DNA of 47,969 nt, from the NCBI GenBank assembly GCA_025454875.1, contig JALONP010000009.1, forward strand, positions 129,696 through 177,664, read 5' to 3'. Shown piece by piece: positions 42,167 to 47,066 of this stretch; position 1 is the stretch's first letter, and the number at the start of each line of letters is the position of its first letter. Position numbers and translations under genes: made by a program. A model generated the notes under the pieces. It was given only the letters and a program-made list of their open reading frames with translations, ran no database searches and was not told the origin of the DNA. The DNA comes from Bacteroidia bacterium (lineage in GTDB: Bacteria > Bacteroidota > Bacteroidia > UKL13-3).

Positions 42167-42306
42167 GGTATTTAAGTAAACTACAGTGATAAGGGTTTTG
42201 TTTTTAATTTGTTGTTCAGGATTCGAATTGCATCCTAATGAATGTAAATTTTTATTGTTAAGATAAAAAACAATGCGAAGAAAAACGATGATGCTACTAA
42301 ATATAC

Positions 42307-42338
42307 GGCACCTGCTTAAGGCCGCTGCTAGGTGCTGG
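42307..42338 (-). repeat. Degenerate terminal attC-like site
   Basis: Minus strand: GCACCTAGC, a short GCGGCC-centred hairpin, then GCAGGTGCC. It resembles the ACCTAAC and GTTAGGTGC ends of the other sites with substitutions and a collapsed middle. It marks the left end of the array. The TAG stop of the neighbouring ORF is part of its first box. Confidence 0.45.
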
Positions 42339-42879
42339 CCTTCCTGAGCGACTTTGTTATGTCCCGCCTGATTAATAAATGAGTGAAAAGTACAGGCAAA
42401 TTAATTTTTAAGTTGTCACGAATGACTGTAAATAGTAATAAGCCGTCTTTGAAGAAAAATATTCTTGTCTTGCAGGTATATGAACTCAAGTCCAGGTAAT
42501 TAGGGCTATTCAATATGATGCAATTGTTAGAATCTCGATAAATCTCAAACTTATTTCTGTCTGCATAATCTAATAAAGCTGTCCTGATAGTTTGTTTGTC
42601 ATGCACAGTTGTAATCTTAATTAAGTGCTTTTCTGTCAAGGCTCGAATTATACCATAAAGTCCGATTACTATTAGAATAAGAAGTATCCAATGAAGAATA
42701 GAAATTTCTTTTGTATTCGCGAAATTTTCGTAATACATAACTATCAAAGGAAGGTAAATTAATTGTCCAAAGAAAATCACAACTGCTAATCTATTTAACT
42801 TATCCATCCAGCTTTCGTCAAAGATTAATCGTCTTTTTGAGACGCTTTCAGCTACATTTATTTTCCTTATTTCTCGCAT
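42328..42879 (-). CDS. Cassette-borne small membrane protein, unknown function
   Basis: 183 residues from ATG 42879 (MREIRKINVAESVSKRR). An ATG at 42909 overlaps the GTTAG box of the preceding attC-like site, so that longer start would be created by the recombination junction; I prefer the internal one. Two transmembrane helices are seen (LAVVIFFGQLIYLPLIVMYY and ILHWILLILIVIGLYGII). A cytosolic C-terminal domain of about 90 residues follows (strand-rich, IYRDSNNCIILNSPNYLDLS). Two membrane helices followed by a compact beta domain could be PH-like, but I do not recognise the family. The stop lies inside the next attC-like box. Confidence 0.7.
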   Translation of the reverse strand: MREIRKINVAESVSKRRLIFDESWMDKLNRLAVVIFFGQLIYLPLIVMYYENFANTKEISILHWILLILIVIGLYGIIRALTEKHLIKITTVHDKQTIRTALLDYADRNKFEIYRDSNNCIILNSPNYLDLSSYTCKTRIFFFKDGLLLFTVIRDNLKINLPVLFTHLLIRRDITKSLRKAST

Positions 42880-42900
42880 GTATCTTTGTCTTGGGCTTGC

Positions 42901-42962
42901 CACTAACATTCCGCGGCTTTACTCCCGATACCTATCGGGATCACGCAAAACCCGTGTTAGTG
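42901..42962 (-). repeat. attC-like site, compact form (62 bp)
   Basis: Perfect 7-bp ends CACTAAC and GTTAGTG. The inner arms are CCGCGGCTTT and GCAAAACCCG-type, and the centre is a hairpin CCCGATA/TATCGGG. It follows the DUF4287 stop by 17 bp on the minus strand. It has the same ends as the 202-bp site at 43626 but lacks its about 140-bp middle part. Confidence 0.72.
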
Positions 42963-42979
42963 TTTCGTTGTTTTTCTTG

Positions 42980-43198
42980 TCATTCGGTTTTTCCTTTGAA
43001 AGTTGCATAGATTGCCATAGCGTGTCCGTGTCCTAATTTAAATTCTTCTTTGAGCCAGTTAGTTATTTCAGTTGCATTTATTTTTGGATTTAGCTTTCCG
43101 TCAACAATAAAGTTCTTTTTTTCAGCTAATTTTTTAAAGTCTGTAGGTGTCTTTCCTGTCTTGGCTTTTATGTTGTCAATGTATGCTTGAAATGACAT
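42980..43198 (-). CDS. DUF4287 domain protein
   Basis: 72 residues. The sequence FQAYIDNIKAKTGKTPTDFK, then LAEKKNFIVDGKL and WLKEEFKLGHGHAMAIYATF, is the DUF4287 pattern: a small helical domain with a conserved GHGHAMA motif, often found in proteins with DUF5655. No biochemical role is established. It starts 5 bp after the DoxX stop, so both belong to one cassette and one transcript. Confidence 0.85.
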   Translation of the reverse strand: MSFQAYIDNIKAKTGKTPTDFKKLAEKKNFIVDGKLNPKINATEITNWLKEEFKLGHGHAMAIYATFKGKTE

Positions 43199-43203
43199 AA
43201 ATG

Positions 43204-43575
43204 TTAATTTTTGTTAGTGTTTAATTTGTGATAGTAAATGTAAGAAACGACTAAAACTGTGAATACAACTAACGGAAAAAAAGTTTGTCCATTTATTCCG
43301 TCCACTGCTCCATGACTAATGGTTGCAAAAATAAAGTCAAATGCAAATCCTGCATAAGTCCATTCTTTTACACGTTTCGGAACCTGTGGAATTATTAATG
43401 CTAAAACCCCCAACACTTTAAAAACTACTAATGCGTTTCCAAAATATTCAGGATAACCCAAATGTCTAATTCCTTCTTTTGCCAACTCCGTTTGTGAAGT
43501 CAACGCAGGCATTACTCCTTCAAATAAAGCGATGATTGTTGTCGCTGTCCAATAAATTATTTTATCCTTTTTCAT
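43204..43575 (-). CDS. DoxX-like four-helix membrane protein
   Basis: 123 residues from ATG 43575. Four hydrophobic segments: IYWTATTIIALFEGVMPAL, YFGNALVVFKVLGVLALIIP, WTYAGFAFDFIFATISHGAV and TFFPLVVFTVLVVSYIYYH. The HLGYPEYFGNALVVFKVLG block is typical of DoxX_2 proteins. DoxX relatives are linked to redox and stress responses, but substrates are not settled. The open frame runs 49 codons further upstream, but that part is translation of the attC-like repeat and its junction, so I reject it. First gene of a two-gene cassette with DUF4287. Confidence 0.85.
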   Translation of the reverse strand: MKKDKIIYWTATTIIALFEGVMPALTSQTELAKEGIRHLGYPEYFGNALVVFKVLGVLALIIPQVPKRVKEWTYAGFAFDFIFATISHGAVDGINGQTFFPLVVFTVLVVSYIYYHKLNTNKN

Positions 43576-43625
43576 TTTTATTTTTAAACTTTTTTGTTTG
43601 TCGTAGGGGTATCTATTACAATGAC

Positions 43626-43827
43626 CACTAACGTTCCGCGGCTTTGCTTCCGATTCCGATCGGGACGGGCGGGAATTTTGCCTAGAGACAAGCTCTTGGT
43701 GGCGAGCTGAGCCTCGCCACACTCACTCGATACAAAGCACGCAATTCAAATATAGCAGAAATTGTCTTAGAAAAATGTTAACCCTACCGATACATATCGG
43801 GATCACGCAAAAACGCTCATGTTACGG
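43626..43827 (-). repeat. attC-like site, long form (202 bp)
   Basis: Ends CACTAAC (plus-strand left) and GTTACGG (right). Inner arms are CCGCGGCTTTGC on the left and ATCACGCAAAAACGCT on the right. The middle holds further small hairpins, including GGCGAGCTGAGCCTCGCC and two CCGAT.../...ATCGGG palindromes. It is closely similar along its whole length to the site at 44464. It follows the DUF5615 stop by 16 bp on the minus strand. Confidence 0.75.
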
Positions 43828-43843
43828 GTTTGTACCTTTCTTG

Positions 43844-44185
43844 CTAGTCTATCTCCAAACAGCCAATGTCAGCATAGTTAATGTCGCTGACAAACGCTTT
43901 TATAATTTCTGAATGATTCTGAAGAACCCTTATCAAGTTGTCTGTACTAGTGTTTCCAATTCTAAGCCATACTACTTTAGGTGGATGTCCATAAAGGGTA
44001 ACCAAGTCATAAAAGTCAGCATCAAATGTCACTATGGTGAATTCCTCTTTGGTAGCGAAATTCCATATTTCCCAGTCACTTTTATCTTCAAGATTTAGTT
44101 CTCGCACTTGTCCGCAACCAGGGAATATTGGTTTTAGTTTATTGGCGACTCTAAATGAAATGTTTTGATCGAAAAGAAGTTTCAC
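43844..44185 (-). CDS. DUF5615 PIN-like (Mut7-C) protein, probable toxin of a TA pair
   Basis: 113 residues. The N-terminus MKLLFDQNISFRVANKLK carries the first PIN-type Asp. The second acidic block is EEFTIVTFDADFYDLVTLYG, then PKVVWLRIGN, as in the DUF5615/Mut7-C PIN-like family. The family is thought to be RNase-like; activity of this protein is inferred. It overlaps the DUF433 gene by 4 bp, a standard toxin-antitoxin arrangement with the antitoxin first. Confidence 0.9.
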   Translation of the reverse strand: MKLLFDQNISFRVANKLKPIFPGCGQVRELNLEDKSDWEIWNFATKEEFTIVTFDADFYDLVTLYGHPPKVVWLRIGNTSTDNLIRVLQNHSEIIKAFVSDINYADIGCLEID

Positions 44186-44406
44186 GAAGCAATGAGAATT
44201 TTATGTTCTCTGTCAGCAGCATAAGATAGAGCTGCTTGTAGGTCTTCCTCTGTCAATTCAGGAAAGTCAGTTAGGATGTCTTGCTTTGTCATTCCAGACG
44301 CAAACCAGCCTAAGATGTCATAAACGCTAATTCTTATTCCACGAATAGAAGGTCGACCAAATCTAGTCTGTGCGTTTATTGTAATTCTCTCCGAATAGTG
44401 TTTCAT
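44182..44406 (-). CDS. DUF433 protein, probable antitoxin
   Basis: 74 residues. The core GRPSIRGIRISVYDILGWFA, SGMTKQDILTDFPELTEEDL and LQAALSYAADRE is the DUF433 helix-turn-helix pattern. DUF433 genes are commonly paired with PIN-like DUF5615 genes and are taken as antitoxin/repressor of the pair. The distance from the start to the preceding attC-like site is 57 bp, leaving room for a cassette-borne promoter; none is clear. The pair is a typical stabilising cargo of cassette arrays. Confidence 0.9.
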   Translation of the reverse strand: MKHYSERITINAQTRFGRPSIRGIRISVYDILGWFASGMTKQDILTDFPELTEEDLQAALSYAADREHKILIAS

Positions 44407-44463
44407 GACGCTAAGATAATTAAAAGCGAATTAGTTTCAAATTCTTGGTTTTTCAGGCATAAC

Positions 44464-44666
44464 CCATAACGTTCCGCGGCTTTGCTCCCGATTCCTATCG
44501 GGACGGGCGGGAGTTTTTTGCCTGGAGGCAAGCTCTTGGTGGCGAGCTATGCCTCGCCACACTCACTCGAAACAATGCACGCAATTCAAATATAAAAGAA
44601 ATTGTGTTAGAAAAATGTTAACACTCCCAATACCAATCGGGATGACGTGAAAACGCTGTTAGGTGC
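44464..44666 (-). repeat. attC-like site, long form (203 bp)
   Basis: Ends CCATAAC (left) and GTTAGGTGC (right). Read on the minus strand it opens with GCACCTAAC, a full match to RYYYAAC, 9 bp after the nuclease stop. The interior repeats the hairpins of the 43626 site (GGCGAGCTATGCCTCGCC, CCCGATTCCTATCGGG), with about one difference in eight bases by eye. Confidence 0.77.
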
Positions 44667-44675
44667 TGGGCTTCT

Positions 44676-46118
44676 CTATACCATTGGTTTTAAGAAGTAG
44701 TTGTCTAATGCCTCTTTCAACTTTTTGTTTTTCATCTTTATGGTTAATTCTCTAATCGCTTGCGGTCTGAAATACGACACTTTGAATTTATTAGTCATTG
44801 CAATGTATTTATCCAATTTTTTGATAGCGTCATCTGTAAATCCTCCCGTGGCCCAATATTCAAATTCAATTTCATGATTCTTTAGTGTTTCTTGTTTTAG
44901 AAGCCATGCTCGGAAAGCTGGAATTTTTGTATTAATCCACTTATCTATCTTAGTGCCGTCAATTTTACTGTTTGTAGCTTTACATTCAACAAAAACGACT
45001 TTGTCATTGTAAACTACATAAACGTCAATCTCATGTTTCCCATTATTCTCAAATATTTCTCTTCCTAGGTCTATACTCTGACTTTTCTTAGAATGTATGT
45101 GTCCAACGAAATATTCGAATAACGTTCCTCTTATATTGAAAATGAGCGTCTCGTTATAAGTTTTCAGTTCTTCAATTAGTTCTAAGTATTTGTTCGGTTG
45201 GGATTTGAGATTAGCACCTGCATTATTCAGAATTGACACTAATTCATTTAAGGCTTTAGCATATTTCTCACCAAAAAGTTCACTTATTAATCCAATTACA
45301 ACGCCATTTTTCTTTAACTCCTTTAATGCATCAGGATGTAAATTGTCAACTATTAGGAATGGAATTACTTTTGAGGAATTATTGAAACTCTGAACATGAT
45401 TCAATTTTTCAATGAAAAACAGTACGTCTTCTTTGTATACTTCTCTCCCAAATAATATATCAGCTAATACAAAACCTGGCTGTTTATTATTAACTAAGCC
45501 TCTGATATACGAAGCACCTTTAAAGCTCTACCTAAATTTTCCATATTCTCCAAAGAGTTCTCCTGTATTGTAGGAAATCAAGCCCATATTTTTCACTAAC
45601 GTACGAAAATTGGATAGTATATCGTCTTTAATGGTTTCAATGGTTCGGTATGTCAAATTTGACGTGTCAATGGAACAAAATTTAGGTGCAAATAAATACT
45701 CATCTTGTCCATTAAAAACTAGTATTCCTTCTTGCACAAACTTTTGCATCACCTTTTTGAAGGGAAGGTGCTTCTTTAAAGGAAGTATCGGATAATTTGT
45801 ATAACATTCTAGATACTTTCTGTTAATAATTCCACCATGGTTTTTTACTGCGTTTAAGCAATACCAATACTTTCTTCCATTCTCATAGAGTGATTTAGAT
45901 AGGATATCGTATAACTTATCGTTTTTGTATTGTTCTTCAAGGAAACACAGAGACTGATTGCTTACAAAAAAGCCCCTTATCTTTTTAATACTTTTTGTGC
46001 GTGAAACTTTTTGACTGGCGGTATTAAGAGGGATTTTTTCGATCCTGGAAAGATGCTCAGATAACTTACCCGACATAAGAGGGCCTTTAGTTGTCAAGAT
46101 TTTTTCAATTGTTGTCAT
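44676..46118 (-). pseudogene. wHTH + PD-(D/E)XK nuclease gene interrupted by an in-frame amber codon
   Basis: Two open segments, 46118-45528 and 45527-44676, lie in the same frame and are separated only by TAG at codon 197 (45528-45530). Together they give a 480-codon reading frame. The N-terminal part starts MTTIEKILTTKGPLMSGKLS and looks like a winged helix (LNTASQKVSRTKSIKKIRGF). The second part runs SFKGASYIRGLVNNKQPGFV without an ATG for well over 200 codons. It contains a PD-(D/E)XK core: Glu in RGTLFEYFVG, then HEIDVYVV and VVFVECKA (Asp365, Glu378, Lys380 in full numbering). The intact protein would be a DNA-cutting, possibly phage-defence, enzyme. A sequencing error or natural readthrough cannot be excluded. 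Confidence 0.8.
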
Positions 46119-46148
46119 ATGGCTCTATATATAAACAACTCGTTAAAG

Positions 46149-46262
46149 TTAAGCACCTTGTAATTTTTTTTGTTTAGGCCTTGTAAACACTGGGAAATCA
46201 TTTTTAAAAAGTTCCATTTTTAACGTCATATCAAGTTTTGGATAGTCTTTGTAGCCTTGCAC
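46149..46262 (-). CDS. Possible small cassette ORF (37 codons)
   Basis: GTG of the attC-like GTTAGGTGC box opens a frame (start MQGYKDYPKLDMTLKMELFK) that ends after PKQKKLQGA, 30 bp before the nuclease gene. An internal ATG at 46229 gives a 26-residue version. There is no recognisable domain. It may be a leader, a decayed gene tail or chance; listed because a cassette's first ORF often begins at the junction. Confidence 0.25.
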   Translation of the reverse strand: MQGYKDYPKLDMTLKMELFKNDFPVFTRPKQKKLQGA

Positions 46263-46392
46263 CTAACGTTCCCGGGCTATGCGTTCGGGCGGGTTTCGGA
46301 GCGCAAAACTGTTAATAAGCACTGAACTTGAATAGAAGCACAATGCTCCAAGTTTGCAGGTTACCCCGCCTGACGCAAAACCCGTGTTAGCG
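46261..46392 (-). repeat. attC-like site (132 bp)
   Basis: Ends ACCTAAC (left) and GTTAGCG (right). The arms pair well: left CCCGGGCTATGCGTTCGGGC against right GCCTGACGCAAAACCCG, giving an imperfect hairpin with unpaired bases, as in folded attC sites. The centre differs from the 200-bp sites. It follows the SRPBCC stop by 29 bp on the minus strand. Confidence 0.75.
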
Positions 46393-46421
46393 GTTCGGGC
46401 TTCTTTCAGTCATCATTGTTC

Positions 46422-46946
46422 TTATTCACTCGAAAGCTTCTCTACATAGTTTTTGAGTTCCAAATTCATTTTCTTGAACCCCTCAGGAGCAGTTTTCATC
46501 ATTGGAAGTTGTCGAAAGATTTGAGAAAGCACTCCACGATATTCTTCTCTGTTAGTCAGCAGGGTTTTACCGTTACCTAAATCTTTTAGTTCAAAAAAAT
46601 GTTCTCCATCAAAAATTCTTGGAAGTCCAGTCTGGGCAAGCCAAGCGAATTGCTTTCTCTCTGTCCAATGGGAAATATCAGGCTTAAACTCATAAGGGTC
46701 AGTACCTTCTACTGCAAGTCTTAAATGCAGGTTACCATTTGGTTGTACTGTCCCACCCAAAAATGTCAATTGAGAGTTCCATTTTTTATAATTGTCAAAG
46801 TCTATTACCGTATTCCAAACTTTGTCAACCGAAGCATTTATTTCAACATCATCTCGAATTTCAAAACTGGTTCTACTCAAAAGAAGAACTAAGCCGACTG
46901 TGATTGCTAAAATTATCCACATATTTTTCCTTTTTTTGATTGTCAT
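46422..46946 (-). CDS. SRPBCC-domain protein with N-terminal membrane anchor
   Basis: 174 residues. A single hydrophobic segment (MWIILAITVGLVLLLS) is followed by a START/Bet v1-like domain: IRDDVEINASVDKVWNTVID, FDNYKKWNSQLTFLGGTVQ, the central DISHWTERKQFAWLAQTG and the long C-terminal helix. SRPBCC proteins bind hydrophobic ligands in a deep pocket; ligand unknown. First cassette of the array, 48 bp after the junction half-site at 46994. Confidence 0.88.
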   Translation of the reverse strand: MTIKKRKNMWIILAITVGLVLLLSRTSFEIRDDVEINASVDKVWNTVIDFDNYKKWNSQLTFLGGTVQPNGNLHLRLAVEGTDPYEFKPDISHWTERKQFAWLAQTGLPRIFDGEHFFELKDLGNGKTLLTNREEYRGVLSQIFRQLPMMKTAPEGFKKMNLELKNYVEKLSSE

Positions 46947-46993
46947 TAGTTCGTCCTATTTTACTTTCGTTGGTTATTGTTTTATGGCCTGAC

Positions 46994-47000
46994 CGCTAAC
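46994..47000 (-). other. Array edge half-site (GTTAGCG on minus strand)
   Basis: CGCTAAC on the plus strand equals the GTTAGCG end of the site at 46261-46392. No palindrome partner lies to its right, so it is the outer junction of the array (attI-like position or last remnant of a lost site). Confidence 0.45.
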
Positions 47001-47066
47001 TCAATATTCTAAGCAATACCATTCCAGGTACTACAAGGCATTGTACAAGCTATGCTTTCTTGTTTT

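Follow-up and report, generated by a model that had tools for sequence, protein, structure and literature searches.

The window, the whole 47,969-nt stretch of DNA analysed here, holds a cassette array at positions 42257-47000. An earlier note on this DNA had placed five minus-strand cassettes here, and both the sites and the open reading frames (ORFs) bear this out: all five cassettes, and the array features listed below, lie on the minus strand, with folded attC-like sites between the cassettes. The right edge of the array is a G|TT junction at 47000/46999, and the array start box reads GTTAGCGG. A degenerate attI-like sequence (47001..47020, minus strand; GGTATTGCTTAGAATATTGA before G|TT) precedes the junction. 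Compared with the attI motifs of integrase loci, it was a weak likeness that did not match the strict motif; it might conceivably be the relic of an attI, or else a secondary site.

Cassette 1 (46267..46999; start TTAGCGGTC) spans TTAGCGG to CCGCTAA, boxes that are complementary by sequence, and carries an SRPBCC/Polyketide_cyc2 gene (46422-46946; ORF and Pfam). Cassette 2 (44470..46266) starts with TTAGGTGC and ends with GCACCTAA, and its boxes pair at 5/5 positions. Its two ORFs (45528-46118 and 44676-45404) could represent a single gene (44676-46118) broken near 45528, and their weak NERD/CARF-PDDEXK similarity suggests that the product could be a defence nuclease. The boxes of cassettes 3 (43632..44469) and 4 (42907..43631) each pair at 4/5 positions. 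Pfam assigned the genes of cassette 3 to DUF433 (44182-44406) and DUF5615 (43844-44185), which look like a toxin-antitoxin pair, and those of cassette 4 to DoxX_2 (ORF to 43204, with a probable start near 43575) and DUF4287 (42980-43198). The gene of cassette 5 (42257..42906) lies at 42328-42909 and was assigned to no family.

We scored the attC sites with R1, a covariance model of the attC family that favours the modal 128-nt form. Site 1 (46260..46393; 134 nt, modal form), itself a member of the seed alignment, scored strongly at 115 bits (E 1e-27). Two sites scored weakly: site 2 (44463..44665; long form, 203 nt) at 20 bits (E 0.025) and site 4 (42900..42963; short form, 64 nt; single-strand DNA fold z −5.05) at 15 bits (E 0.07). 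Site 3 (43625..43828; long form, with direct repeat D1) is 88% identical to site 2 over 142 nt and fell below the R1 cut-off. The loops of these three sites depart from the modal 128 nt, which explains their low or sub-cut-off scores, and we accept the three as putative attC sites on their conserved arms and their positions rather than on the R1 score. The arm spacings of 725, 838 and 1797 bp equal the cassette lengths. A left-arm motif, TAAC[AG]TTCCnnGGCTnT[GA]C, which we composed after inspecting the sites, was found at exactly four places in the 48-kb window, on one strand and always within the array. When both strands of 40 first-order Markov copies were searched, it was found 0 times.

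The attC of cassette 5 is truncated to a half site (42257..42334), with the right half present and the left half missing, that by eye resembles the right half of a site in the second array of the source genome (L012:7248-7380). The expectation of a palindrome after each cassette thus held for four complete sites, and the one expected near 42307 proved to be a right half only, starting from about 42257. The end boxes proposed earlier (ACCTAAC/GTTAGGT) are one variant of a more general form: the R-box core TAAC/GTTA, invariant in the seeds, comes with 4-5 variable bases, and of the canonical R boxes RYYYAAC/GTTRRRY the RRRY part fits only some copies.

The earlier note had seen no integrase, and we likewise found no PF00589 protein on the contig of the window (C6), which ends ~0.97 kb past the array. 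With four complete sites, the array has what defines a CALIN (at least two attC sites, with an integrase absent nearby). No Rfam family scored above threshold within the window. We sought an empty site of the array through its right-hand flanking gene, which is absent from nearly all close relatives, and did not find one. Among 19 loci carrying the cassette 1 gene, one weak attC was found in other contexts, and the best homologue of this gene (72%) lies outside any array.

We observed a common hairpin in 15 sites from the source genome and its relatives. It consists, in order, of the R box (TAAC/GTTA), an asymmetric internal loop, the L stem, a mismatch and a longer stem. At 16 of the 22 stem pairs both sides change, and pairing was lost in slid versions of the alignment. 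A covariance-model search, which the earlier note had proposed, revealed further arrays in the source genome and in most relatives. R1 gave 10 sites in the source genome (E ≤ 0.1) and showed additional clusters on contigs C15 and C26. Among genomes that include many metagenome bins, R1 sites occurred in 123/147 relatives (E ≤ 0.001) and in 116/247 members of a phylum sample (E ≤ 1e-6), and many of the sites were singletons in their genomes. On a class 1 integron the best R1 score was 10 bits, which is no real match. A duplex-energy scan for attC had too low a specificity.

The second array of the source genome (L012:5408-8554) lies at the end of C15; it holds an HTH/Gp49 toxin-antitoxin-like pair, and an IS110-family transposase adjoins a half attC. 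The third (L141:5124-9041, on C26) carries a PIN/DUF6364 pair and a GmrSD-like gene. Seven further genomes were reached through non-Bacteroidota or poor loci, and six of them had no R1 match. The seventh, Orenia metallireducens (G381, L102; Halanaerobiia, Bacillota), has an integrase of the array-linked type and three R1 attC sites, probably through transfer between phyla.

In an integron cassette, the first bases (TTRRRY) and the last (RYYYAA) form one site in the circle. Complementarity is thus expected within a cassette and not across the linear palindrome. We observed a within-cassette box match of 4.21/5 in 42 cassettes, in a test that, like R1, takes in the window sites (permuted 2.01; 0/20000 permutations as high). 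The match across the palindrome was 2.12/5 (75 sites; permuted 1.97). We read this pairing of a cassette start box with its own end as the mark of circles joined at G|TT. The array type also shares with canonical integrons a foldable attC, containing R and L boxes, that closes each of the co-oriented cassettes at its 3' end, together with the G|TT junction and complementary start and end boxes of one cassette. Some arrays contain genes without an intervening site.

The source genome encodes three PF00589 proteins: XerC, XerD and a 366-aa protein on contig C10. The best-scoring models for the C10 protein were XerA and IntI, both under their cut-offs (for IntI, TIGR02249, 199 bits against a cut-off of 265). 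Its closest solved relative, by sequence and by Foldseek, is the Vibrio cholerae integron integrase 2a3v, and XerA and 2a3v stand near each other in its Z-score list. The call for a search for an IntI-type recombinase was therefore answered in part: an integrase of IntI/XerA affinity lies in the genome beside an attI-like site, but on another contig and with the additional domain missing.

Relatives of this integrase were present in 64 contigs of named genomes. The KDR-HxLRH distance was 58-63 aa in array-linked integrases vs exactly 100 aa in every measured IntI of the phylum. By this measure the array-linked integrases lack the IntI additional domain, and the array is not a canonical integron. 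The catalytic residues R, K, HxxR, H and Y were invariant in 40 sequences. In a tree with thin outgroup sampling, which does not set the direction of the additional-domain change, the Bacteroidota integrases formed a clade (99/91) separate from IntI (100/99), and the two stood together against four Xer rows. We interpret the array-linked integrases as the sister clade of IntI on this topology.

A region with an N-terminal W-x-W motif was present in 38/53 array-type integrases (some of the others are truncated) and in 0 IntI. In the L003/L013 integrases, residues 1-80 (alignment A4) form an extra b-b-a-b-b domain that is found neither in IntI nor in the short members. Against HARP (PF07443), 8/25 members matched with a best E of 1e-4, and those inspected reached 20.7 bits (cut-off 25). 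The 4o66 fold gave E 0.14 by profile and E 0.74 by Foldseek, and it was missing from the VIA list. We hypothesize that this domain reads the folded attC.

Close integrase relatives occurred in 54/147 genomes, compared with 123/147 for attC. Because attC is the more widespread, other recombinases may serve some of the sites. Two bins, labelled Planktophila (L088) and Bifidobacterium breve (L096), contain Bacteroidota-type integrase contigs and are probably mislabelled or mis-binned.

Arrays and integrases were arranged with a clear polarity. In 31-32 integrase loci, 74/75 attC sites were placed with cassettes pointing away from the integrase. The array was upstream and divergent in 6 loci, and downstream on the same strand in 25. 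In most integrase loci without attC, the sequence ends shortly past the integrase on the array side. A motif, CG[TC]ATA-N7-|GTT, was found within 500 bp of the integrase in 18/60 loci, at 0.32 per kb vs 0.016 elsewhere (20x), and 16 of the 18 had the expected side, orientation and GTT[AG]. In the source genome, the motif lies 110 bp before the start of the C10 integrase and is followed by the cassette start GTTAGCGGTC. We take CG[TC]ATA-N7-|GTT[AG] beside an integrase as a candidate attI. An attI beside the integrase, as in canonical integrons, is accordingly assigned to the source genome and to 16 loci, and the window array itself has only the degenerate look-alike.

Cassette junctions were resolved to the base at resistance genes in other loci. 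In the relative G142, an erm(F) cassette (L047:13898) starts with GTTATGCGGCAGC directly behind the attI motif, and the Erm(F) gene scored above the curated cut-off. A Bacteroides fragilis plasmid holds a second erm(F) cassette (L231:6335), placed directly behind the attC of tet(X2). The two copies are 99.1% identical over 897 columns, with the alignment starting at the G of GTT. In both cassettes (L047:13005-13898, the first at attI in G142, and L231:6335-7229) the gene is reversed within the cassette. For tet(X), the start at GTT follows attI in Acinetobacter tet(X3) plasmids and a different sequence in Empedobacter, where the GTT at L230:157 is the first aligned base. In records of Empedobacter, Bacteroides and Proteus, tet(X) is followed by an attC that R1 scored at 67-76 bits. 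No attC was found by R1 behind tet(X3) in Acinetobacter, because the attC there is cut short. These erm(F) and tet(X) loci, all distinct from the window array, are whole-cassette differences broken exactly in the GTTA box.

The earlier note had asked for breakpoints inside this box, and they are supplied by the erm(F) and tet(X) loci and not by the window array. We saw neither of the outcomes that it had named as contrary, that is, palindromes unrelated or absent in relatives, or breaks outside GTTAG/CTAAC. The genes tet(X), tet(X2), tet(X3) and a tet(X4)-like gene occur as cassettes at L230:157-1491, L231:4714-6342, L232:4161-4295, L146:3804-5117 and L147:8889-10180, and estT comes after the attC in L232.

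Overall, our data suggest with high confidence that the window holds a CALIN-like cluster, devoid of an integrase, of an integron type that is non-canonical and spread across the Bacteroidota. Of the two identities offered earlier, an integron or a related, poorly described system in this phylum, the results support chiefly the second. By every sequence test available the array type behaves as an integron, and from this we infer recombination; the missing IntI additional domain keeps us from classing it with the canonical integrons.

Several other explanations account for part of these observations. An ordinary IntI with the additional domain could have captured the cassettes, the array then being a remnant and the Bacteroidota integrase incidental. 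The array plan is indeed integron-like, with an attC behind every cassette, circle pairing and G|TT, and other classes of the phylum often carry canonical IntI, with 70/247 genomes over the cut-off. The class of the window, however, holds only 1 of the 71 IntI-matched genomes, canonical IntI was not found in the source genome, arrays of the same family are polarised from the other integrase, and R1 fails on the class 1 integron. We consider this origin improbable. It is less probable still that housekeeping XerC/XerD move the cassettes, as in Xer-dependent resistance modules, with the array-linked integrase a diverged Xer in another role. Although the source genome encodes both proteins and many attC-bearing genomes show no close integrase relative, such a scheme is at odds with the polarity and attI motif beside a dedicated integrase, and with the cassette junctions at attI in the erm(F) and tet(X3) loci.

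The singleton sites in many genomes, and the genes that follow one another without a site in some arrays, could also be explained by palindromes that are a REP- or MITE-like repeat family between genes, with the cassette appearance due to chance. Such repeats, however, predict pairing between the two arms of one copy. The pairing that we observed joins neighbouring copies, between the two ends that enclose one cassette, and the erm(F) and tet(X) loci break exactly at G|TT. Of the explanations considered, chance repeats are the one to which we assign the smallest probability.

Under the non-canonical integron reading, the recombinase would bind the folded single strand of attC in a cassette circle and join the circle at G|TT to attI or to another attC. 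The outcome would be capture, movement and loss of cassettes. The C10 integrase would act in trans on the window array, which would have lost half of its last attC. In most members the weakly HARP-like N-terminal domain might take over recognition of folded DNA. According to Messier and Roy 2001, as cited in PMC4792948, the additional domain is needed for activity of the closest solved enzyme. This counts against the proposed mechanism, because an enzyme of the 2a3v type needs the domain and the integrase here is without one. More tentatively, and slightly short of an even chance, we propose a second Bacteroidota-wide integron lineage. Its enzyme, a sister of IntI, would never have had, or would have lost, the additional domain, would recognise the folded strand through the HARP-like domain, and would have been the first mobiliser of tet(X), erm(F) and perhaps estT cassettes.

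IntegronFinder 2.0 reported almost no integrons in Bacteroidetes; it listed In0 elements and a single complete integron, in Salinibacter (PMC9024848). Surveys pick IntI by its additional domain (PMC2426708; PMC8352920), so a cassette system spread through the phylum but served by a different integrase would have gone unnoticed. We found no description of the system in the open-access literature on integrons, CALIN, the additional domain, Flavobacterium, rAID, or ermF/tetX with attC, and one may exist elsewhere. The array type would offer a natural test of the purpose of the additional domain, and the integrase clade is a possible step between Xer and IntI. The spread of tet(X) and erm(F) could be reinterpreted as integron cassettes first, with ISCR2 and plasmids later. 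Surveillance by intI1 and standard attC models would miss this reservoir.

Compared with canonical integrons and CALINs, the array type is alike in its attC at the cassette 3' end, folded R/L boxes, complementary start and end boxes and G|TT. It also shares with canonical integrons arrays that point away from the integrase and an attI beside it, and IntI is the closest relative of its integrase, solved and phylogenetic. It differs in an integrase without the additional domain (58-63 vs 100 aa) and mostly with an extra N-terminal domain, and in a 128-nt attC family whose core is TAAC/GTTA, whose outer boxes vary and which R1 separates from class 1 attC. Its arrays often lie downstream of the integrase on the same strand.

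With XerA and XerC/XerD, the integrase has in common the catalytic residues and a compact C-terminal domain without the insertion, and it is XerA-like in NCBIfam; unlike them, it is tied to cassette arrays and an attI-like motif, and it forms a separate clade in the tree. The tnpF-tet(X3)-ISVsa3 (ISCR2) segment of Acinetobacter plasmids has been rearranged by ISVsa3 and its attC behind tet(X3) is cut short, but its annotated TnpF is related to the integrase (49.6%), though truncated, and the attI motif lies directly before tet(X3).

The rAID (recombinase-associated acquired interbacterial defence) clusters of Bacteroidales have a predicted tyrosine recombinase with short genes behind it, all in one orientation and with conserved motifs between them, and PMC12247911, which describes them, does not name them integrons. 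We rejected rAID as the identity of the window array, as Pfam gave no T6SS immunity family among the window genes (SRPBCC, DoxX, DUF433/DUF5615, DUF4287 and unassigned genes). A Parabacteroides plasmid (L151:9716-16809) carries a 44% identical integrase, T6SS immunity genes (rAID-like) and no R1 attC, and its sites may be a further branch. The two systems thus share a tyrosine recombinase, co-oriented short genes and intergenic motifs, but the Parabacteroides example is without R1-type attC, and rAID clusters hold immunity genes only whereas the cassettes here are of mixed function. Among described systems in the phylum, rAID is the nearest, and it may be a specialised branch of the array type.
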